From Tardiphaga sp. vice304 (GTDB lineage: Bacteria; Pseudomonadota; Alphaproteobacteria; Rhizobiales; Xanthobacteraceae), in assembly GCF_007018905.1 (NCBI RefSeq), contig NZ_CP041402.1, forward strand, positions 4,948,001-5,012,000: 64,000 nucleotides of DNA. Direction: 5' to 3'. A model generated the notes under the pieces. The model worked only from the letters and a program-made list of their open reading frames with translations. It was not told the origin of the DNA and made no database searches. This document shows positions 7,853 to 56,356 of the stretch, one piece after another; position 1 is the stretch's first letter, and each line of letters starts with the position of its first letter. A program made the translations under genes and the position numbers.

Positions 7853-8084
7853 CTGAACACCCCTCCGCGACGACGACGCTGAACTACACTTCAGCGACAT
7901 GTCATCGCCGCAGATTTTACGCGCCAGTCTCCCGCCGCCCCTCGAAGTTAATCACAACTTCACGAGTTGCAGCTATATTCGATTGCGGACAGAATCCGTA
8001 GTTGTACGGGCTACGTGACCAGACTGCCGGTATCGCAGGATGCCCTCGACATCATCTCCCTTTGCTCTAAATCACGGCAACGAC

Positions 8085-38675: not shown

Positions 38676-38794
38676 AACGGCGCTGCCGTGGACCTGCGCG
38701 TCACCGCGCGCGATACTGAATTAAGTGTTAATGCTGAAACGATGAAGCCGCCGACTCGCCCCGCGGGTCTCCATTCGTAAGCCATGAAGTGCCG

Positions 38795-41700
38795 ATGAAC
38801 AGCGCGGAAATCCAGTTGCGAGGCGTCAGCGATGCCAGGCTGGCCTTGCACGCGACAAGCAACCAGCCGGCCTGGCTGTGGTCGCTCGACGGCACGCGAA
38901 TCCTGTGGGCCAATCCGGTCGGCGCAAGGCTGTTCGATGCCGAACACGCCGCAGCCCTGTTCACCAGAAGCTTCGGCCCCGCCGATCCGCATCGCCGCCA
39001 GATCGCGCAACTCGGCGAGCGGCTGCCGGAAAACGGCGCGGTACGGCTGGAGCGGCTGCGCGGATTTGGCGCAGCGCTCGGCAGCCTGATGACCTGCGCC
39101 TGCGCACGGCTGGACTTCACCGATGGCGGCGCCGGCCTGCTGGTGGTGGCGGTGGAGCCGACGGGCCGCTTCATGCCGCTCCTGCAGCGGTTGCAAAATC
39201 TGGTCGAGGGCATCGACGCGCCGATTGCCGCGTTTGCGCGCGACGGGCAATTCATCGGCGCCTCCCCGGCAGCGCAGGCTTTGCTCGGTTTCCACGACCT
39301 CAATGGGGCTGACCTCGACAGCGCGCGCAACGATGCACTGCAGGTGGGACGCCACGAGACCCCGATCGGCTTCGGCCATATGGTGCTGCAACGCGTCGGC
39401 AGCGGCGCCGATGTCGGGCTGGTCGCGCTGATCGTGCCTCGCGTGGCGCAGGCTACGCCGATCGAACCGCCGGCCGAGATGCTGCAATCCACGCGCGTCG
39501 AAAGCCAAGCCCCGCCAACCGAACCGGCGGATGCCGAGGATGCGGTCGAGGCCGACGCCAGGCGGGCACCGCCCGAACTGACCGCGCACGAGACCGAAGT
39601 CGATCACGCCATCGAACGGGAAGCCGTCCTCGAAGATCGCGAAGTGGCACCCGAGCCCGAGCCGACGTCCGAACTGGAAGCCGCGATTGCCGAGACCGTC
39701 GCGCGGACCGGAGCGCCCTCGCAGGCCGCGGTATCGCCGCGGGCCGATTCCGAACCATCGCCCTTTGTCGAAGCCGTGGCCGACGAACCCGCGGCCGGGC
39801 CGGAGCTTGCAGCGTTGGCGCCGCGCAGCACGCCGCTGCGCTTCACCTGGCAGATCGATGCCGACGGCCGCTTTGCGCTGAATTCGGACGAATTCCTGCG
39901 TCTGATCGGCGCGCCGAGTGCGGCCGCTTCCGGTCCCTGGACCGAGATTGCCGCCGATCGCGGCCTCGATCCCGACGGGCGCATGGCCGCTGCGCTCACG
40001 ACACGCGCGCCGTGGAGCGGCATCACGCTGCTGTGGCCGGTCGATGGCGGCGGCCGGTTGCCGGTCGAAATGGCCGGGTTGCCGTTGTTCGACCGCGATC
40101 ACCATGTATACGGTTGGCGCGGCTTCGGCATCTGCCGCAATTTCGAAGCGATCGCTCAGCTGGTCGCCCCGCCCCGCCCCGTCCCGCCGGACGATCCACT
40201 GCCGCCATCGCTGTCTGCGGACATCGCCCAGGCCGGACCGGTTGGCGACAGCCTCGAAGACGAACCGAACGCGCTTACCCCCGAGACCGAATCCGACATG
40301 ACAACGACCATCGAACCGGACCTTCACGCGGACCCTTTGCAGAACGTCGTGCTGTTCCAGCCGGGCGATCTCAAATCGCCGACACTGACGCCGGTCGAAA
40401 ACAACGCCTTCCACGAATTGGCGCGGCAGTTGTCGGCGAGGCTTGAGGCCGAGGTGGGCATCGAAGGCGTACAGTCTTCCGATTCCTCGTTCGAAGCTGC
40501 GTCGACCGACGAAGGTGCAAGCCCTGACGTGGCGCCAGGCTCTGGCGTGGCGCGCGAACAGGCTCTGCTCGACCTGTTGCCGGTGCCGGTGCTGGTCACC
40601 CGGGAGGATCGGCTGATACACGCCAATCCGGCTTTCCTGTCCATGATGGGCTATCCCAGCCTGGACGCCCTCGAACAGGCCGGCGGGCTAGACGCGCATT
40701 ATGCAGAGCCCGGCCTTGGCGGCTCTGCGGTGCCGACCGATGTCCGCATGTTCGCGGTCGAGTGGGACGGCGAACCCGCCGAAGGACTGATTTTTGGCAC
40801 GGCGCCAGTCGTTGCTGCCGGGCAGCCGGCCGAGGTTGCAGCACCCGCGATAGCCGCCGAAGCGCCGGTCGCCGGCCAGGCCAATGCGGAAGAACTCGCC
40901 GCGATCCTCGACACCATGGCGGAAGGCGTCGTGATGTTCGACGCCGAAGGCAATATCCACGCCTGCAACCGCAGCGCCGAGGCGCTGTTCGGCTATGACG
41001 GCGCGCTGCTGACACAGCGCAATTTGATCGACCTGTTCGCCCAGGAGAGCCAGCGCGTGCTGCGCGAATATATCGAGGCCATCAAGCAGGACAATGTCGC
41101 CAGCCTGTTCGAGCAGGGCCGCGAGGCGCTTGGCCAGGTTCGCGCCGGGGGCCTAGTGCCGATGTCGGTGATGATCGGCCGCACCCGCTCGGACGCCGGC
41201 AACTTCTTCGCCGTGCTGCGCGATCTGACGCAGGCCAAGAAGACCGAAAGCGAACTGCTCGCCGCACGGCGCCAGGCGGACCACGCAGCGACCGCCAAGG
41301 CCGACGTGCTGGCGCGGATCAGCCACGAGGTCCGCACGCCGCTCAACGCCATCATCGGCTTCGCCGAAGTGATGATCGACGAGCGTTTCGGCGCGCTCGG
41401 CAACGAGCGATATCTGGATTACATGAAAGACGTGCGCGCCTCTGGCGAGCGTGTGCTGACGATCGTCAACGACCTGCTCGACCTGTCACGGATCGAGACC
41501 GGCAAGCTGGATCTGTCTTTCGCCGCGCAAAACCTCAACGAGATGGTGGAGCAATGCGTCTCGGTGATGCAGCCGCAAGCCAATCGCGGTCGCATCATCA
41601 TCCGTACCTCGCTGTCGCATCTCGCGCCGGTGGTCACCGCCGATGCCCGCGCGCTGCGCCAGATAACGCTGAACCTGATCGGCAACTCGATCCATCTCGC

Positions 41701-41989
41701 CAATGCCGGTGGGCAGGTGATCGTCTCCACCGCGCTGTCGGACGAGGGCGACGTGGTGCTGCGCGTCCGCGACACCGGCCACGGCCTCAATGACAGCGAG
41801 CTCGCCGCGGCCATGGAGCCGTTCAGCCACCAGGCCCCGAACGACCAGGCGCCGGACAGCGCGGCCGTCAGTCTGTCGCTGACCAAGGCGCTGGTCGAAG
41901 CCAACCGCGCCCTCTTCCAGATCAAGACCGCGCCAAGCTCCGGCACGCTGATCGAAGTGGTATTCGCCGACGCCAGGGTGAAGGCATAG
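38795..41989 (+). CDS. PdhS/PleC-DivJ family sensor histidine kinase with degenerate ATP lid
   Basis: 1064 residues, no membrane helix. The first 500 residues are Ala/Pro/Glu-rich with weak PAS-like blocks (near 20-60 and 335-450). Two clearer PAS domains lie near 590-640 and 700-810. The HisKA dimerisation domain has the phosphorylated His844 (RISHEVRTPLNAIIGFAEVM), and the sequence after it is closely of the PdhS/PleC/DivJ type that acts on the cell-cycle regulator DivK. In the ATPase domain Asn964 and the G1 motif (Asp993, DTGHG) are kept. The glycine-rich G2 box expected before LTKALVEANRA is replaced by DSAAVSLS from residue 1021. It may thus act mainly as a phosphatase or scaffold. Start at ATG 38795; GTG 38789 is in frame. 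Confidence 0.85.
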   Translation: MNSAEIQLRGVSDARLALHATSNQPAWLWSLDGTRILWANPVGARLFDAEHAAALFTRSFGPADPHRRQIAQLGERLPENGAVRLERLRGFGAALGSLMTCACARLDFTDGGAGLLVVAVEPTGRFMPLLQRLQNLVEGIDAPIAAFARDGQFIGASPAAQALLGFHDLNGADLDSARNDALQVGRHETPIGFGHMVLQRVGSGADVGLVALIVPRVAQATPIEPPAEMLQSTRVESQAPPTEPADAEDAVEADARRAPPELTAHETEVDHAIEREAVLEDREVAPEPEPTSELEAAIAETVARTGAPSQAAVSPRADSEPSPFVEAVADEPAAGPELAALAPRSTPLRFTWQIDADGRFALNSDEFLRLIGAPSAAASGPWTEIAADRGLDPDGRMAAALTTRAPWSGITLLWPVDGGGRLPVEMAGLPLFDRDHHVYGWRGFGICRNFEAIAQLVAPPRPVPPDDPLPPSLSADIAQAGPVGDSLEDEPNALTPETESDMTTTIEPDLHADPLQNVVLFQPGDLKSPTLTPVENNAFHELARQLSARLEAEVGIEGVQSSDSSFEAASTDEGASPDVAPGSGVAREQALLDLLPVPVLVTREDRLIHANPAFLSMMGYPSLDALEQAGGLDAHYAEPGLGGSAVPTDVRMFAVEWDGEPAEGLIFGTAPVVAAGQPAEVAAPAIAAEAPVAGQANAEELAAILDTMAEGVVMFDAEGNIHACNRSAEALFGYDGALLTQRNLIDLFAQESQRVLREYIEAIKQDNVASLFEQGREALGQVRAGGLVPMSVMIGRTRSDAGNFFAVLRDLTQAKKTESELLAARRQADHAATAKADVLARISHEVRTPLNAIIGFAEVMIDERFGALGNERYLDYMKDVRASGERVLTIVNDLLDLSRIETGKLDLSFAAQNLNEMVEQCVSVMQPQANRGRIIIRTSLSHLAPVVTADARALRQITLNLIGNSIHLANAGGQVIVSTALSDEGDVVLRVRDTGHGLNDSELAAAMEPFSHQAPNDQAPDSAAVSLSLTKALVEANRALFQIKTAPSSGTLIEVVFADARVKA

Positions 41990-41999
41990 CACGCGCGGT

Positions 42000-44363
42000 T
42001 CAGGCCACCGCTGCCTGAACTGTCATCAGGCCCGCGTCCGCGTCGTGATCCTTGCTCCGCGCGAAGGCGATCGCCTCGCTCCCGATCATTGGCCGGGCAT
42101 AGACGTAGCCCTGGACCATGTCGCAGCGGAAGCTGCGAAGGATCTCCACTTCGGCGACTTTCTCCGCGCCTTCGGCCACGATGGTCATGCCCAGACCGCG
42201 CCCGAGCGCAACGATGCCTTCGAGCAGTTTGCGGGCCCTGGCGGATTCAGCGATGCCGTCGATGAAGATGCGGTCGATCTTCAGCTTGTCGAACGGCAAC
42301 TGGGTCAGATAGCCGAGCGACGAATAGTCGGTCCCGAAATCATCGAGCGCCAGCGTGACGCCCAGTTTCTTGAGCTCGGTGAGCACCTTGCGGACCCGTC
42401 CCACGGCATGGTCGGCCATCAGGCTTTCCGTCAGTTCGAGGCACAGCAGATGCGGCGGCAGCCTGGTCTCGTTAAGCACGCGTACGACATCGCCGATGAA
42501 GTCCGAATGCCATATCTGGGCGGCGTACACGTTAACCGCGACCTCTCGCGGCGGCTCACCGGCATCGATCCAGCGCTTGGCCTGGTTGGTGGCCGCGCGT
42601 AACACCCACAGACCGAGATCGCAGATCAGCTGCGAACTCTCAGCGATCGGGATGAACTCCGCCGGAGGGACGTTGCCGCGCACCGGATGGTTCCAGCGCA
42701 GCAGCGCCTCAAAGCCAACCACCCGGCCAGACGAAAGATCCGCCTGCGGTTGGTAGTGCACCGCAAGTCCGCAGTTCTGCTGAACGGCGCCGCGCAGGTC
42801 GCGCGCGAGCGCAATCTTGTGCTGGACGATTTCGCTCATGTCGGGATTGAAGAACTTGGCGCGTCCGCGACCTTCCTCTTTCGCCTGGTAAAGCGCGAGA
42901 TCGGCATGGCGCAACAGATCGCCGACATTGTTGCCGTCATGCGGGAACAGCGCGATCCCGATGCTGGCGCCAACCAGCACTTCACCGGAGCTCAGCGAGA
43001 TCGGGTCGGCGATCGCCGAGATTACCTGTGCAGCCAGCGTCTCGACCTCTGCGAGGGCAGTATAGCTTCGCACGATGATCGCGAACTCGTCTCCGCCGAG
43101 ACGACTGAGAACGTGACGGCTACCGAGCTGGCGCGAGAGCAGATGCGCGACGCGAACCAGCAGTTCGTCTCCTGCCGCGTGCCCCAGCGAGTCGTTGACC
43201 TCCTTGAAACGGTCGAGGTCCAGCAATAGCAGCGCACCGCTTTTACCAACCAGCTGCCGCACCAGCAGACTATTGAGTTCGCGGTGGAACAGCGCGCGGT
43301 TGGCCAGCGCCGTCAGCGGATCATGATAGGCCAACTGTTCGAGCTGCTCCTCGGCGCGCTTTCGTTCCGAGATGTCCTGAATGGTGCCGTGAAAGCCGAT
43401 GATATGCCCGTCGGCATCGCTCGTCGCCTTGTTGGTTACGACCAGATCGCCGATCGAATTATCGCCCCGCCGATACTTGATATCGACGCTCTTGATCGCT
43501 CCGGTGCGCGCCACCTCGGCCTGGGCTTCGAGCACGCGCTGCGCGCCGTCGTCGATGTAGCCGCCCACGACCGCAGCGTGGCTGGTACGGAAGCTCACCG
43601 GATCATATTCCAGAAGCGAATACAGCTCCGGCGACCACCAGATGTCGTCGTCGCCCAGTCGATAGCTCCAGTCGCCGATTTTCCCCATCCGCTGGGCCTC
43701 GACGAGCTGGCCGGAACGTTGCGTGAGGGTGGCTTCCGCCCGCCGCAGTTCAACTTCGCGCGCCTCGAGCGATTGGTTCTGGTCGAGCAGATCGGCATTC
43801 TTTCGCGATATGACCGCATTGGCCGCACTGAGCTCCCGCAGGGCCCGGTCGAGCGCGCGCAGCGGCAGCACCCGAACTGCGAAGTAGCTGCCAAGGCTGA
43901 GCAGAATCGACAGCAGCGAGACAATACCCAGGCGACGCAGCAGCGGATCGAGCGGGACGGAGAACTGAAACGATCCAACCGTTGCCCCAGCGACGACCAC
44001 CGGCGCGACGCGGCTCAGTTCGAAGCGAGACGCCTGCGTGCCGCCGGAAAATATCTGATTGCCGTCCTGGTCGAAGATCCACTCGCGTGCGCCCTCCATC
44101 GACGCCTCCGGCAACTCGACGACTTCGGCAAGGCGCACCGTCTGGTACTGCCACATCACCGCGTTTTCGTAGATGAACCTCGACAGGCGATGGGCACCGA
44201 GCTGGACGCGGAACGCAGCGCGCGAGCTTTCGAAACCGTAGCCGACCACGGCATAGCCTGCAGGCACGCCCACGCCGATCAGACAGGCAATCGAGAGCGC
44301 CACCGCGTTCACGGTGCGGCGTAACGAGCGCCCTTGGCGCTCGATATGGTCATGATCACTCAT
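42000..44363 (-). CDS. Membrane GGDEF-EAL protein (c-di-GMP turnover) with PAS domain
   Basis: 787 residues from ATG 44363. Membrane helix 1 at about 18-42, a periplasmic loop of about 100 residues with the pattern of a small sensor domain, and helix 2 near 147-170. A coiled coil and a PAS/PAC domain (GDWSYRLGDDDIWWSPELYSLLEYDP) follow. The GGDEF motif is intact at 423-427 and the EAL motif at Glu552 is intact (FEALLRWNHP), so both cyclase and phosphodiesterase activities are possible. The gene overlaps the end of the PstS-like gene by eight bases, implying translational coupling. The binding protein is the likely sensory partner of the periplasmic loop. Confidence 0.9.
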   Translation of the reverse strand: MSDHDHIERQGRSLRRTVNAVALSIACLIGVGVPAGYAVVGYGFESSRAAFRVQLGAHRLSRFIYENAVMWQYQTVRLAEVVELPEASMEGAREWIFDQDGNQIFSGGTQASRFELSRVAPVVVAGATVGSFQFSVPLDPLLRRLGIVSLLSILLSLGSYFAVRVLPLRALDRALRELSAANAVISRKNADLLDQNQSLEAREVELRRAEATLTQRSGQLVEAQRMGKIGDWSYRLGDDDIWWSPELYSLLEYDPVSFRTSHAAVVGGYIDDGAQRVLEAQAEVARTGAIKSVDIKYRRGDNSIGDLVVTNKATSDADGHIIGFHGTIQDISERKRAEEQLEQLAYHDPLTALANRALFHRELNSLLVRQLVGKSGALLLLDLDRFKEVNDSLGHAAGDELLVRVAHLLSRQLGSRHVLSRLGGDEFAIIVRSYTALAEVETLAAQVISAIADPISLSSGEVLVGASIGIALFPHDGNNVGDLLRHADLALYQAKEEGRGRAKFFNPDMSEIVQHKIALARDLRGAVQQNCGLAVHYQPQADLSSGRVVGFEALLRWNHPVRGNVPPAEFIPIAESSQLICDLGLWVLRAATNQAKRWIDAGEPPREVAVNVYAAQIWHSDFIGDVVRVLNETRLPPHLLCLELTESLMADHAVGRVRKVLTELKKLGVTLALDDFGTDYSSLGYLTQLPFDKLKIDRIFIDGIAESARARKLLEGIVALGRGLGMTIVAEGAEKVAEVEILRSFRCDMVQGYVYARPMIGSEAIAFARSKDHDADAGLMTVQAAVA

Positions 44364-45213
44364 GCGCAACCGTCAGATTTCCGGTCTGCCACAGCAGCCG
44401 TTCACCGGCGGGCGAGCGAAGGAATTCGACAAAGCGATCGACGGTCGGGTTTTGTCGCGCCGATCGTATCAGATAGAATTTCTTGCCGTAGGGATAGCTG
44501 CCCCGCGCCAGATCTTCCAGCGATGGCGCCACCCCGTCGATGGCGACAAATCGCAGGCGCGGCTTTTCCATCAGAACCTGCGTCAGGCTGGCGGCGACCA
44601 GTGAACCATCGATCCGTTCAGCCATCCGGAAGTTGTCCTGATCGGTCGCCGCGACGGGGATGTCACGATGTTCCCGCATGGTGGCGATCGCCGCAACCAT
44701 GCCCGGGAATGTCGCACCAAGTAGCGTGGAATCGCTTTCGCTGCGCGGACGCAGAATAACGCGCACCGGCGATTCATCCGGCCAGGTCGAAGCTGCGCTG
44801 GCGTAGAACCCCGCTATATCAGCGCTCTTGATATCTCCCGGAGCGGAATTCGAACTGACCAGACCGAATGGAGACGTCGCAAAATGCATGGCCCGCAGCG
44901 ACGCCGCAGCTTCCTCGGGCTTCAGTTCGCGCGACGAGGCGGCAAGATCGAGCGCCCCATCCCGGACGGCGGCGATCCCCCCTGAACTTCCGAGACTCGG
45001 CACGATGTCCAGCCGAACGCCCGGGGTCGCCGCAGAGAACGCCTCGCCAAGGGTCTTCATCATTCCTGCCGCTGCGCCGGTACCACCGACGCGCAGCGTC
45101 TGAGCATTGGCCCCGCCCGGCAGCACAAGACCGAGGACAACGCCGAGTATCACAAGCGCGGATCGGCGAAGGCCTGTTCGCGGATGCAATTGTAGCTTCA
45201 CCATGGACATCAT
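44356..45213 (-). CDS. PstS-like periplasmic substrate-binding protein
   Basis: 285 residues with a clear signal peptide (about 1-37, RRSALVILGVVLGLVLPGGANA). The mature part is a two-lobed binding protein of the phosphate/PBPL type: RVGGTGAAAGMMKTLGEAF, then VPSLGSSGGIAAVRDGALDLAASSREL, the serine- and glycine-rich loop that holds phosphate in PstS. No ABC permease or ATPase is nearby; the next gene, overlapping by eight bases, encodes a membrane GGDEF-EAL protein. This suggests signalling rather than uptake. The start could be at 45213 or at the in-frame ATG 45204. Ligand not proven. Confidence 0.82.
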   Translation of the reverse strand: MMSMVKLQLHPRTGLRRSALVILGVVLGLVLPGGANAQTLRVGGTGAAAGMMKTLGEAFSAATPGVRLDIVPSLGSSGGIAAVRDGALDLAASSRELKPEEAAASLRAMHFATSPFGLVSSNSAPGDIKSADIAGFYASAASTWPDESPVRVILRPRSESDSTLLGATFPGMVAAIATMREHRDIPVAATDQDNFRMAERIDGSLVAASLTQVLMEKPRLRFVAIDGVAPSLEDLARGSYPYGKKFYLIRSARQNPTVDRFVEFLRSPAGERLLWQTGNLTVAHE

Positions 45214-45573
45214 CTGAGCTGCCGTTCCGTGCCAGAATTGCAGCTAAGGCTAGCGTCTTACCCTTAACTTAATACGAACCGCAACCGGTGAAGCGGTCCA
45301 CCCTCCATTTACCCTGCTACCTAATTGCACAGGATCGCATATCCAGACACCGAAGTTGCGATGTGTGCCCGCCCAGGGCCCGTTCTGTCATCCGGGAATC
45401 TACAACGTTGCGTGTGACCACGCGCAACGGAATGCCGTGGCGCACGACCGCACAGCTCGCAGCAGCGGAAATCTGGAATCTCTCTAGAACGGTAGAATCG
45501 CGACATTGCGTCGCGCGTCTGTGGCCACCTACTGCGCTACTCCATCCACATTGCCCGCTGTCCGGAGTTGTTC
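45214..45573. other. Divergent intergenic region, 360 bp
   Basis: No coding frame with normal codon use, tRNA, or clear repeat. It has to hold the promoters of the PstS-like/GGDEF-EAL pair and of the iron-binding protein gene. A TCTAGAACGGTAGAAT stretch near 45483 recalls an iron-responsive (Irr-type) element only loosely and is not called. Confidence 0.5.
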
Positions 45574-46590
45574 ATGATCGCGCGTCCCGTTGTTACCGCC
45601 GTTTTTGCCCTCGCCTGTTTCGGCGCCTCCACCGCGCACGCCGCCGAGGGGGTCAACGTCTACACCTACCGCGAAACCAAACTGGTGCAGCCGCTGTTCG
45701 AGGCGTTCAGCAAGGACACCGGCATCAAGGTCAACGTGATCTCCGCCTCGTCCGGCCTCGAGCAACGCATGAAGGCCGAGGGCGCCAACAGCCCGGCCGA
45801 CGTGTTGCTGACCGTCGATATCGGCCGCATCGACGAGGCCGTGCAGGCCGGCGTGACGCAGCCTATCAAGTCGGACGTGATCGACAAGAACGTGCCTGCG
45901 CAATATCGCGATCCCGACGGCCACTGGGCCGGCATCTCGATGCGCGCCCGCGTGATCTATGCCGCGAGGGACCGCGTCAAGCAGGACACCATTACTTACG
46001 AAGAACTGGCGGACCCGAAGTGGAAGGGCCGGATCTGCATCCGCTCCGGCCAGCATATCTACAACAACGGGCTGTTTGCCGCCTATGTCGCTCACCACGG
46101 CGAGGCGAAGGCCGAAGCGTGGCTGCACGGCGTCAAGGCCAACCTCGCCCAAAAACCGTCGGGCGGCGACCGCGAGACGGCGCGCGACGTCGCGGCCGGC
46201 AAGTGCGACCTCGGCATCGGCAATACCTATTACTGGGCGCTGATGATGAACGCCGATCCTGACAAGAAGCCGTGGGCGGAAGCCACCCGCGTTATCCTGC
46301 CGACCTTCGAAGGCGGCGGCACCCATGTAAACCTGTCCGGCGTGCTGCTGGCCAAGCACGCGCCGAACAAGGCCAATGCGCTGAAGCTGATCGAGTGGCT
46401 GGCCGGCGAGCAGGCCCAGCAGATCTATGCCGACGCCAATTACGAATATCCGGTGCGCGCGGGCGTCGCGATCAACCCGACCATTGCCGGCTACGGCAAG
46501 CTCGATCCGGATCCGATGCCGATGGCGAAGATCGCCGCCAACCGCAAGGCCGCTGCGACGCTGGTCGACAAGGTCGGGTTCGATAATTGA
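45574..46590 (+). CDS. fbpA: Ferric iron ABC transporter substrate-binding protein
   Basis: 338 residues. The signal peptide is cleaved after about residue 24 (FGASTAHA). The mature protein starts EGVNVYTYRETKLVQPLFEAF, as in FbpA/IdiA proteins. The paired tyrosines in GIGNTYYWALM are the metal ligands of this group, and the N-terminal YTYRE tyrosine adds a third. It would bring Fe(III) to the permease encoded by the next gene. GGAG lies just upstream of ATG 45574. A repeat composite lies between this gene and the permease gene. No ATPase gene of the transporter is in the window. Confidence 0.92.
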   Translation: MIARPVVTAVFALACFGASTAHAAEGVNVYTYRETKLVQPLFEAFSKDTGIKVNVISASSGLEQRMKAEGANSPADVLLTVDIGRIDEAVQAGVTQPIKSDVIDKNVPAQYRDPDGHWAGISMRARVIYAARDRVKQDTITYEELADPKWKGRICIRSGQHIYNNGLFAAYVAHHGEAKAEAWLHGVKANLAQKPSGGDRETARDVAAGKCDLGIGNTYYWALMMNADPDKKPWAEATRVILPTFEGGGTHVNLSGVLLAKHAPNKANALKLIEWLAGEQAQQIYADANYEYPVRAGVAINPTIAGYGKLDPDPMPMAKIAANRKAAATLVDKVGFDN

Positions 46591-46618
46591 GGATGGCGCA
46601 CAGCTCGGCACTTCTTCT

Positions 46619-46745
46619 TCCTTCTCCCCTTGTGGGAGAAGGTGGCGCGGACGAAGTCCGCGTCGGATGAGGGGGTGCCGCAGAACACAACCCCTCACCC
46701 GTCCGTGCTACGCGCGGCCACCCTCTCCCACAAGGGGAGCGGGTA
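46619..46745. repeat. Composite palindromic repeat (REPIN-like), copy 4
   Basis: Arms CTTCTCCCCTTGTGGGAGAA and CCCTCTCCCACAAGGGGAG, with the inner GCGGACGAAGTCCGC palindrome, as at 12420. It ends 13 bp before the GTG start of the permease gene. Confidence 0.88.
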
Positions 46746-46758
46746 AGAAAGCGCGAGC

Positions 46759-48399
46759 GTGAAATCACGTCACATCCAGTTCACAGCCACCACCATCGCC
46801 GCGCTGACCGCGCTGGCCGTGGCGGCGCCGGTGGTCAGCATCCTGCTGCTGGCGCTGCAGCCCGTGCCGGAGCTGTGGCCGCATCTGGTCGCCTATGTGC
46901 TGCCGCAGGCGTTGGGCGATACGGCGTTGCTGCTGCTCGGTGTCGGCATCGTGACGCTTGGCATCGGCGCCGGCTCGGCCTGGCTGATCTCGACGCATAA
47001 CTTCGCCGGACGCCGCCTGCTGATCTGGCTGATGCCGATGCCGCTGGCGATCCCGACCTATCTGGCGGCTTATGTCTATGTCGACCTGTTCGAGCCGCTC
47101 GGCCTCGTGCATCAGGCGCTCGCCACCGCCATGCCGACAGCCGACGCCATCCGCTGGCTGCCGAACCTGCGCTCGTTGCCGGGCGCGATCTTCGTCATCG
47201 GCCTCGTGCTGTATCCCTATGTCTACCTCTCCGCGCGCGCCATGTTTCAGCATCGCAGCGCCGACTTCGCCGAAGCGGCCAAAGTACTGGGCGCCGGCCG
47301 CTGGACCACCTTCCGCCGGGTGTCGCTGCCGATGGCGCGACCGGCGCTGGCGGTGGGCGTGGCCCTGGTGTCGCTGGAAACGCTGAACGATATCGGCGCC
47401 AGCGAATATCTCGGCGTACGCACGCTGACGGTGTCGGTTTTTACCACCTGGCTGAACCGCGGCAGCCTGCCCGGTGCGGCGCAGCTTTCGCTGTTGATGC
47501 TGGCGATCGTCGCGTTGCTGATCGCGGTCGAGCGCATCGGCCGCAACCAAGTCAGCGTCGAGTTTTCAGCGGAAAATCCGCGGCTGGCGCCCCGCAAGCC
47601 GCTTCATGGCATCAGGGCCGCGCTGGCGTTCGCGGCCTGTATGACACCGGCACTGCTCGGCTTTGCGGTGCCTCTGCTGTATTTGTTGCGCGAGACCCTT
47701 CGCCGCGAATTGTGGTCGGGCGCGGGCTCCGTGTGGCGCGACGCCGGCCACAGCATCGTGCTCGCCGGCACCGCCACGGCCATCGCGCTGCTGCTCGGCC
47801 TGACCGTGATCGTCGCCCGGCGCTGGCGGGCCTCCGGACTGGCCGATCTGTCGCTGGCGGTGGCGCAGGCCGGCTATGCGGTGCCCGGTCTGGTGCTCGC
47901 GCTCGGCCTGCTGACGCCGCTGCTCGCGATCGATGGCGCGTTCAACGCGGTGGCCGCGTGGCTCGGCATGGTGCCCCCCGGATTGATCATGATCGGCTCC
48001 GGCGCGGCGGTGGTGACCGCCTATGTGATCCGCTTTCTGGCGGTGCCGACCGGTTTCATAAAGGCCGGGTTTGAACGGATTCCCGTCGACTACGACGACA
48101 GCGCACGATCGGCCGGCGCGCCTGATCTCACCACGTTGCGCCGGATTCATCTGCCGCTGCTGCGACCGGCGCTGCTCGGCGCCGTGATCGTAGTGTTTGT
48201 CGATGGGCTGAAGGAGTTGCCGGCGACGCTGCTGTTGCGCCCGCTCAATGTCGAGACGCTGGCGACCTCGATCTATCAATACGCCAGCCGCGGCAGTTTC
48301 GAGGAAGGCGCGCTGGCGGCACTCTTGATCGTAGCGGCCAGCATTCCGCCGGTGATGTGGCTGACGCGCTTTGCCGACGTCCCGCAGGGGCCGGCGTAG
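46759..48399 (+). CDS. fbpB: Iron ABC transporter permease (fused two-domain)
   Basis: 546 residues with about twelve membrane helices in two homologous halves. Each half has an EAA-type cytoplasmic loop that contacts the ATPase: EAAKVLGAGRWTTFRRVSLPMARPAL in the first, and DDSARSAGAPDLTTLRRIHLPLLRPAL in the second. This two-domain form is typical of FbpB. Translation starts at GTG 46759, a few bases after the end of a repeat composite. The fbpC-type ATPase gene is missing here, and the next gene is convergent, so the ATPase must be encoded elsewhere or shared. Confidence 0.92.
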   Translation: MKSRHIQFTATTIAALTALAVAAPVVSILLLALQPVPELWPHLVAYVLPQALGDTALLLLGVGIVTLGIGAGSAWLISTHNFAGRRLLIWLMPMPLAIPTYLAAYVYVDLFEPLGLVHQALATAMPTADAIRWLPNLRSLPGAIFVIGLVLYPYVYLSARAMFQHRSADFAEAAKVLGAGRWTTFRRVSLPMARPALAVGVALVSLETLNDIGASEYLGVRTLTVSVFTTWLNRGSLPGAAQLSLLMLAIVALLIAVERIGRNQVSVEFSAENPRLAPRKPLHGIRAALAFAACMTPALLGFAVPLLYLLRETLRRELWSGAGSVWRDAGHSIVLAGTATAIALLLGLTVIVARRWRASGLADLSLAVAQAGYAVPGLVLALGLLTPLLAIDGAFNAVAAWLGMVPPGLIMIGSGAAVVTAYVIRFLAVPTGFIKAGFERIPVDYDDSARSAGAPDLTTLRRIHLPLLRPALLGAVIVVFVDGLKELPATLLLRPLNVETLATSIYQYASRGSFEEGALAALLIVAASIPPVMWLTRFADVPQGPA

Positions 48400-55193: not shown

Positions 55194-56356
55194 CGTTGCA
55201 GGACCACGCAATCGTCCGGCGCGAACCACGCCACGACGCGCTGGCCGATGCTGTAGGCATCGACATCGAGCCGCGCGGTGTTGGCCAGCGCCGCGCGCAA
55301 TGTCGCGCCATGGTCGAGCCTGAGTTTGTAAACAGAGAGGCCGCCGAGATAGCCGACCTCGCTGACCACGCCTTCGACACTGTTCATGGCGCCGGACATG
55401 CCGCGTTCGCCGGCCGGGCCCTTACGCGACAGCCGGATTTTTTCCGGCCGGATCGCGAGGCAGACGGACGGGCCGTCCAGCTTCTGTCGCGGCTCGGTGG
55501 CGAGCAGCGTCCCGGCCTGCGCCGTGGCCACCGTCAGGCGATGGCCGTCGTGCAGCGTCACATCGCCCTCGATCAAGTTGATATCGCCGACGAAGCCCGC
55601 GACCCAGCGCGATTCCGGCGCCTCGTAGAGCTGCCGCGGCGTGGCCACCTGCTCGAGCCGGCCGTCGTTCATCACGCCGATCCGGTCGGCCATCGTCATC
55701 GCCTCGTTCTGGTCGTGGGTGACGATGACGAAGGTGGTGCCGAGCCTGCGCTGCAGCGCGATCAGTTCGGACTGGGTTTCCTCGCGCAGCTTCTTATCGA
55801 GCGCGGCGAGTGGCTCGTCGAGCAGCAGGAGCTGCGGTCGCCGCGCCAGCGCGCGCGCCAATGCCACGCGCTGCTTCTGCCCGCCCGACAATTGATGCGG
55901 CTTTCGCGATTCCAGCCCTTTCAGCTTTACCAGATCGAGCATCTCGCCGACGCGGCCATCGATGCCCGCTCGCGTCAGACCGGCGTTCTTGAGGCCGAAG
56001 CTGATATTGTCGCGCACGTTGAGATGCGGAAACAGCGCATAGCTCTGAAACATCATGTTGACAGGCCGCTGGTGCGGCAGCACGGCGGCAATGTCTGCGC
56101 CGTCCAGCAGGATGCGGCCGGCATCCGGCGTCTCGAACCCCGCCAGCATCCGCAACAGCGTGGTCTTGCCGCATCCCGAAGGACCCAGCAGCGCAAAGAA
56201 TTCCCCGGCATGAATATCGAGCGAGAGGCCATCCACCGCGGTCGAGCGACCGAAGGTCTTTCGCACGGCCTCGATCCGCAGCAACGGCGTGGGATAGGCG
56301 ACGACCGGCGCCGGGGCGGCGGCCGTTTCGTCAAAGGTGATGTCAGATGTCGTCAT
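55190..56356 (-). CDS. potG: Polyamine-type ABC transporter ATP-binding protein (PotG-like)
   Basis: 388 residues. The ATPase domain has Walker A GPSGCGKTT near residue 58, the Q-loop QSYALFPHLNVRDN, the signature LSGGQKQR, Walker B LLLLDEP, and the H-loop VTHDQNEA. The C-terminal TOBE-type regulatory domain (residues 290-388, CLAIRPEKIRLS) is typical of the PotA/PotG branch that powers spermidine/putrescine uptake. First gene of the string potG-potH-potI. The potF binding-protein gene, often first, is absent. Confidence 0.93.
   Translation of the reverse strand: MTTSDITFDETAAAPAPVVAYPTPLLRIEAVRKTFGRSTAVDGLSLDIHAGEFFALLGPSGCGKTTLLRMLAGFETPDAGRILLDGADIAAVLPHQRPVNMMFQSYALFPHLNVRDNISFGLKNAGLTRAGIDGRVGEMLDLVKLKGLESRKPHQLSGGQKQRVALARALARRPQLLLLDEPLAALDKKLREETQSELIALQRRLGTTFVIVTHDQNEAMTMADRIGVMNDGRLEQVATPRQLYEAPESRWVAGFVGDINLIEGDVTLHDGHRLTVATAQAGTLLATEPRQKLDGPSVCLAIRPEKIRLSRKGPAGERGMSGAMNSVEGVVSEVGYLGGLSVYKLRLDHGATLRAALANTARLDVDAYSIGQRVVAWFAPDDCVVLQR

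Follow-up and report, generated by a model that had tools for sequence, protein, structure and literature searches.

In a 64,000-nucleotide stretch of the genome of Tardiphaga sp. vice304 (RefSeq assembly GCF_007018905.1, contig NZ_CP041402.1, positions 4,948,001 to 5,012,000 of the forward strand; hereafter the window), two overlapping genes encode a secreted PstS-like solute-binding protein (SBP) and a membrane protein with GGDEF and EAL domains, hereafter the receptor. With high confidence we regard the two proteins as a dedicated periplasmic sensing unit, in which the SBP would dock on the receptor and set the level of cyclic di-GMP (c-di-GMP). SBP and receptor ectodomain would be a portable front end, and the SBP would belong to a signalling branch of PstS-like proteins, with a ligand that is probably not phosphate. 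In the proposed mechanism, the PstS-fold SBP would bind an extracytoplasmic solute and dock on the receptor's short periplasmic domain with its Trp. Docking would tip the receptor towards either its diguanylate cyclase or its phosphodiesterase activity and thereby set c-di-GMP. In relatives, the same combination of SBP and ectodomain would control a histidine kinase or a chemoreceptor.

The pair had been described in an earlier note on this DNA, and both genes were found on the minus strand with the overlap given there. The last base of the SBP stop codon is position 44356, so that 8 bases are shared with the receptor gene, and the two genes are presumably translationally coupled. The features of the pair are as follows (window positions):

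44356..45213, minus strand: SBP gene; secreted PstS-like solute-binding protein, PF12849, 285 amino acids, 'GTGAA' signalling type
45103..45213, minus strand: signal-peptide-like segment of the SBP, residues 1-37, ending in ...GGANA, as read from the sequence with a predicted cleavage site
44356..44363, minus strand: overlap of SBP stop and receptor start, 8 bases
42000..44363, minus strand: receptor gene, 787 amino acids; sensor, weak PAS, GGDEF and EAL; ATG at 44363
44235..44315, minus strand: first transmembrane helix (TM1), about residues 17-43, by hydropathy
43944..44234, minus strand: periplasmic sensor loop, about residues 44-140, about 100 amino acids, with Trp71 and Arg77
43860..43943, minus strand: second transmembrane helix (TM2), about residues 141-168, by hydropathy, followed by a conserved P-L-R-x-L segment
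43380..43643, minus strand: PAS-like region, about residues 241-328; PAS_3 with 14.5 bits against a Pfam cut-off of 25.6
42864..43331, minus strand: GGDEF domain, residues 345-500, Pfam 149.5 bits
42090..42803, minus strand: EAL domain, residues 521-758, Pfam 222.5 bits

The helix pair, the loop and the intact GGDEF and EAL domains of the architecture proposed earlier were recovered, but the PAS domain was detected only weakly, below the cut-off. For several close homologues of the receptor, the listed domains include PF08447. The GGDEF motif (residue 423) and the EAL motif (residue 552) are intact, and the further motifs which we take to be typical of EAL domains (N, E, DD, K, E, Q) are all present. 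An RxxD I-site is absent from what is presumably its usual place in the GGDEF domain.

The pairing of both genes is conserved. Members of the SBP family were detected in 12 of 61 relatives (E 1e-3), in 26 of 397 genomes of the order and in 37 of 398 genomes of the phylum (both E 1e-20), and at 27 loci on named contigs. In metagenomes, with candidates capped at 8000, at least 659 proteins matched the SBP at E 1e-3 or better. The order, phylum and class samples overlap partly, and their searches scored at most 6 to 10 candidates per genome. In the phylum sample, 20 of the 398 genomes had SBPs of at least 134 bits, and exactly these 20 also had the sensor, each time adjacent (Fisher p 4e-34, phylogeny ignored; both searches apparently covered the same genomes). 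On this co-occurrence, chance adjacency was rejected. SBPs of at least 235 bits were found in 15 of the 397 order genomes and the sensor loop in 17, with 15 genomes in common and the genes adjacent in these. The sensor search of the order matched 38 genomes, 17 of them over the loop; from the other 21 genomes, 13 matches were retrieved, which fit the core profile only from model position 142 on or not at all. In the class sample (327 genomes) the SBP stood alongside in 10 of 11 genomes with the sensor.

After re-scoring with one profile, all SBPs of about 136 bits or more had a TM1-loop-TM2 sensor next door, except L054 and L064, where the contig ends 42 bases past the SBP frame or inside it. 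SBPs of 119 bits or less were without the sensor, apart from L067, where the SBP is cut by a contig end and the sensor is present; the other matches in this group were weak and fragmentary (30-38 bits). L064 and L067 are two contig ends of one metagenome-assembled genome (MAG) and hold the front and back parts of an SBP; they may be one locus split by assembly. No fusion of SBP and receptor surfaced in the relatives, order and phylum searches, in which the open frames of the matched SBPs measured 199-412 residues from stop to stop.

For further comparison a set of 56 non-duplicate pairs was used. Duplicates (L002, L003, L005, L014, L015, L017, L068) were removed, and loci with a sensor and a truncated SBP (L065, L067, L087) were excluded. 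The matches at L012 and L013 were set aside for their weakness. Of the 56 pairs, 51 are co-directional and 5 divergent. In 50 of the co-directional pairs, the SBP stop is followed within 60 bp or less by the nearest possible start codon, which overlaps the stop in 19 pairs, by a rule that favours close starts. The distances among SBPs and among sensors are correlated (r 0.71, reached in 0 of 2000 permutations), a value inflated by shared descent; within the groups the correlation was 0.73 for GGDEF proteins and 0.82 for kinases. The nearest SBP was also the nearest sensor in 33 of 56 cases.

Furthermore, the same SBP and sensor are found before different output domains. The receptors of the 56 pairs comprise 27 with GGDEF(-EAL), 26 histidine kinases and 3 chemoreceptors (methyl-accepting chemotaxis proteins, MCP); these classes were confirmed by Pfam for the receptors scanned, and at loci taken with 1.5 kb flanks the receptor is often cut, so that EAL is not always visible. 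At L041 (6785-9123, from a MAG) sensor and GGDEF-EAL are encoded in separate frames, by an assembly error or in a broken gene; the output was assigned by hand as GGDEF-EAL from tblastn, and the two frames were kept apart. At least seven output changes were counted on the SBP tree, and the starred branches alone force at least two. Thus, SBP and receptor look like a modular front end with interchangeable outputs. The adjacency, the almost one-to-one occurrence of the two genes and the use of one front end for three output types strongly uphold the suggestion of the earlier note that the pair is a periplasmic sensor like NspS-MbaA.

In the aligned sensor loops, all 56 pairs have Trp71 and 53 have Arg77. 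No Pfam family convincingly covers the loop in the 26 members scanned, for which match positions were inspected in the window receptor and match counts in the others. A recognisable Pfam ectodomain was rejected for the window loop, which is touched by only one match (dCache_3, E 0.096). A solved relative of the loop was likewise rejected: by sequence, the best structure matches fall in the coiled coil, with one chance match in the loop (E 0.87). As far as these searches show, the sensor ectodomain would be a compact, unclassified domain.

Pairs of an SBP and a receptor are not restricted to the window type. The following loci were found in addition:

L136-L142: sister clade of GTGDG-type PstS-like SBPs, with a different receptor ectodomain and the same three output types
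L128 4901-5902 and L129 4386-5306: RbsB-type SBPs (PF13407), each directly downstream of a GGDEF-EAL protein that carries a related sensor domain

The SBPs of the sister clade, lower-scoring and with the motif G-T-G-D-G, adjoin receptors at 15 of 15 non-duplicate loci, 7 of which supplied the query receptors for the receptor-adjacency search. Their receptors carry a larger ectodomain, which has no BLAST similarity to the window-type sensor. HAMP was detected in 6 of the 7 whole receptor genes scanned, and the seven outputs scanned were GGDEF-EAL (5), chemoreceptor (1) and histidine kinase (1). The two main SBP groups each form one side of a branch (Shimodaira-Hasegawa-like approximate likelihood ratio test, SH-aLRT, 99 and 93). 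L095, another G-T-G variant that the SBP tree had classed as 'other', precedes a kinase. No signalling-domain matches were found within the 1.5 kb flanks of nine comparison loci (L091-L094, L096, L097, L010-L012). The RbsB-type SBPs stand immediately downstream of the sensor in the order genomes G266 and G191, which are without an SBP of the family; their sensors score 97.5 and 81.6 bits against a profile built without them. For the wider reading of these results we see even chances. It holds that a branch of PstS-like proteins, with G-T-G for G-S-x-[ST] and an acidic residue for SGT, left transport and consists of signalling-only detectors. The branch would comprise at least two clades and L095, with different ectodomains, interchangeable outputs and a non-phosphate solute, and the Trp-containing ectodomain would be a general dock that also takes an RbsB-type SBP.

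Receptors stimulated by SBPs are an established kind that includes chemoreceptors, kinases and cyclases/phosphodiesterases (PMC9602780), and activation of a receptor by an SBP is an established mechanism (PMC9602780, PMC4926252). The window pair shows the general features of this kind, a secreted SBP whose gene accompanies that of a transmembrane receptor with a periplasmic domain (topology by hydropathy). NspS-MbaA is described for Vibrio cholerae and also for Sinorhizobium meliloti; there, too, the binding-protein gene lies just upstream of that of a GGDEF-type/EAL membrane protein, and NspS contacts the periplasmic domain of MbaA (PMC8079147, PMC9993111). NspS responds to polyamines, whereas the window SBP is a PF12849 protein whose Pfam and NCBIfam matches include no polyamine-SBP family. 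The window-type front end is also common to outputs other than c-di-GMP enzymes.

The nearest architectural precedent for the output exchange is PruR-DcpA and PruR-DTB of Agrobacterium and other Proteobacteria, two-gene operons with a secreted binding protein and one kind of ectodomain on GGDEF-EAL proteins or histidine kinases (PMC13259868). However, PruR is a pterin binder of the SUOX fold, and the DcpA-type periplasmic region comprises about 190 amino acids with the motif WX7E, in contrast to the PF12849 partner and the loop of about 100 amino acids in the window. WX7E was not found in the window loop, where W71 is present and position +8 is Ala; Glu at +9 occurs in 29 of 56 pairs. A DcpA-type ectodomain was rejected, with an hhalign probability of 1.1% against three ectodomains (L206, L211, L212) that were classed as DcpA-like on the strength of WX7E and of a neighbour with a weak PF00174 match. 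L212 (1-1923, minus strand), from a relative in the order, holds a PruR-DcpA-like pair of a small secreted PF00174-like protein and a WX7E receptor.

In the phosphate chemotaxis of Pseudomonas aeruginosa, a PstS protein likewise binds a receptor ectodomain, that of CtpL; this PstS is a transport protein that binds phosphate and serves one chemoreceptor (PMC4926252). The window SBP differs in being separate from pstSCAB, encoded with its receptor and without the canonical loop. RmcA-type proteins also provide an input of the periplasmic binding protein (PBP) fold to a c-di-GMP enzyme, but with SBP_bac_3 domains fused to it, whereas the window SBP is a separate protein. Among the domains of the PBP clan, SBP_bac_3 alone had been studied in c-di-GMP networks, according to PMC8846402. 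NspS-MbaA, PruR-DcpA/DTB and PstS-CtpL are precedents for ligand-controlled docking, the most likely mechanism. Searches of the literature, with most subscription papers outside their reach, brought up no description of such a pair of PstS-like SBP and receptor. As far as this literature goes, the PstS-like branch committed to signalling, the unclassified ectodomain and the use of one front end for three output classes are new.

An SBP that in addition feeds a distant importer, like the PstS of P. aeruginosa that serves both pstSCAB and CtpL (PMC4926252), has to be considered, and we regard it as unlikely for the window SBP. The gene neighbourhoods of the homologues bear on this question. The receptor is the only neighbour in nearly all loci (26 of 28; the contigs of the remaining two end there). 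The other contexts identified are diverse and include rhamnose isomerase, RimP, an Opp-type permease, an imelysin-like protein, a glycosyltransferase and an amidohydrolase. Five loci share an IlvD/Edd-type dehydratase gene upstream of the SBP (Pfam on three):

L047 4070-5794: IlvD/Edd-type dehydratase
L058 4063-5787: IlvD/Edd-type dehydratase
L055 1711-3684: IlvD/Edd-type dehydratase
L048 3988-5712: IlvD/Edd-type dehydratase
L054 4051-5829: IlvD/Edd-type dehydratase

Further upstream, four of these five loci carry a DctM-type gene (Pfam on L058), and TctC genes were found in L047 and, by clustering, in L048. Transport genes also include those for an Opp-type permease after the kinase at L066, and ABC-ATPase-like frames cluster within 6 kb at five loci. 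All of these would suit a second role in import, but no single transporter recurs beside the SBP, and SBPs of one type go with receptors of all three output types. In that sub-branch, the dehydratase with DctM and TctC might point to a carboxylate or a sugar acid as ligand. The neighbours in general gave no reading of the ligand; the contexts are diverse, and only the five loci share the dehydratase.

The earlier note had proposed phosphate or another oxyanion as the signal. In that case the SBP would bind phosphate or a close oxyanion, and c-di-GMP would be set by the phosphate supply. The window SBP does belong to the Pfam family of PstS itself (PF12849, PBP_like_2; 75.4 bits against a cut-off of 27), and among the solved structures closest to it in sequence most carry the name of a phosphate-binding protein. 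However, it fails the cut-offs of both PstS families (TIGR02136 with 53.8 against 206.6 bits, TIGR00975 with 19.9 against 205). The single other PF12849 protein of the genome passes (TIGR00975 with 360.5 against 205) and is followed by pstC, pstA and pstB. This dedicated pstSCAB lies at G000:C1:1392459-1396386 (1.39 Mb on the contig), apart from the pair at 4.99 Mb (SBP at contig positions 4992359-4993213, receptor gene adjoining). A remnant of a PstS transporter was rejected, since the PstS cut-offs are missed and the genome has its own pstSCAB elsewhere.

The residues of the SBPs were compared in an alignment with solved PstS proteins and other PF12849 relatives, with what we take to be the canonical phosphate loop R-x-x-x-S-G-T and its phosphate contacts as reference. 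First-lobe residues at presumed contact positions of PstS are retained (Thr45 as Thr in 52 of 56 SBPs, Ser76 as Ser or Thr in all 56), in favour of phosphate. Against it, S-G-T is replaced in the family by [ED]-x-D, with an acidic residue 159 in 55 of 56 and Asp161 in 49 of 56, after an R155 kept in 56 of 56, and Asp191 is invariant (56 of 56). S-G-T was seen in five comparison loci (L091-L094, L097). Among the homologue neighbours identified, a selection, no phosphate-system gene was found. The acidic loop would disfavour a free oxyanion, and the ligand of the window SBP is probably not inorganic phosphate. We consider phosphate sensing improbable, in disagreement with the earlier proposal; an oxyanion may still be the ligand.

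A ligand-free SBP could also act as a periplasmic brake or clamp that reports the state of the envelope and not a solute. YfiR-like logic is the model for such a brake, and control by a protein partner is possible for short ectodomains. The conserved polar residues R95 (54 of 56), R155, D191 and E216 (52 of 56) suggest instead that a ligand site was kept, and we give the brake little chance.

Several points weigh against a dedicated sensing unit. Physical docking, ligand binding and the direction of the c-di-GMP response are what we infer from sequence. The distance correlation and the co-occurrence p both ignore phylogeny. The spread is patchy, with the pair in 2 of 18 genomes of the genus, the window's own included. 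G-R-S-T stands at the loop position in L096, L010 and L011, all without a receptor; loss of S-G-T alone is therefore no mark of a signalling SBP. In the class sample, a sensor histidine kinase of genome G881 is without an adjacent SBP of the family, and none above 24 bits was found in this genome. A weak sensor match in the phylum genome G520 (36 bits, a 21st) is also without an SBP. The G881 kinase gene (L176 2525-4861, minus strand) is followed by a response-regulator-like gene, and by eye the divergent gene at L176 resembles a PBP-fold decarboxylase without a signal peptide. That adjacency is incidental or an operonic convenience, for which the lone G881 sensor would speak, is hardly credible given the 20 of 20 co-occurrence and a pair that is kept in divergent arrangements and through output exchange.

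Around the pair, the window holds the following genes:

45571-46590, plus strand: SBP_bac_1 protein (Pfam), directly divergent from the pair
46759-48399, plus strand: BPD_transp_1 permease (Pfam), 1.5 kb from the pair

By position, these two genes appear to make up an importer distinct from the pair, binding protein included (45571-48399), possibly of the iron type by resemblance. The earlier statement that no ABC permease or ATPase is nearby has to be corrected for the permease, which lies on the other strand. No phosphate-type ATPase was found near the pair; among the matches listed, the one match to the PstB model inside the window (about 55589-56281) scores 149 bits, below the cut-off of 343. 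A gene for a PAS-HisKA-HATPase kinase of 1066 amino acids with a long Glu/Ala/Pro-rich middle (38789-41989, plus strand) is convergent with the receptor gene.

Many name-giving sources label members of the branch as 'phosphate transport system substrate-binding protein' and similar, so that likely sensors are read as nutrient importers. Once the branch is recognised, orphan c-di-GMP enzymes, kinases and chemoreceptors throughout Pseudomonadota gain a candidate input. The branch is also a natural experiment, in which one detector has been joined to three kinds of output.

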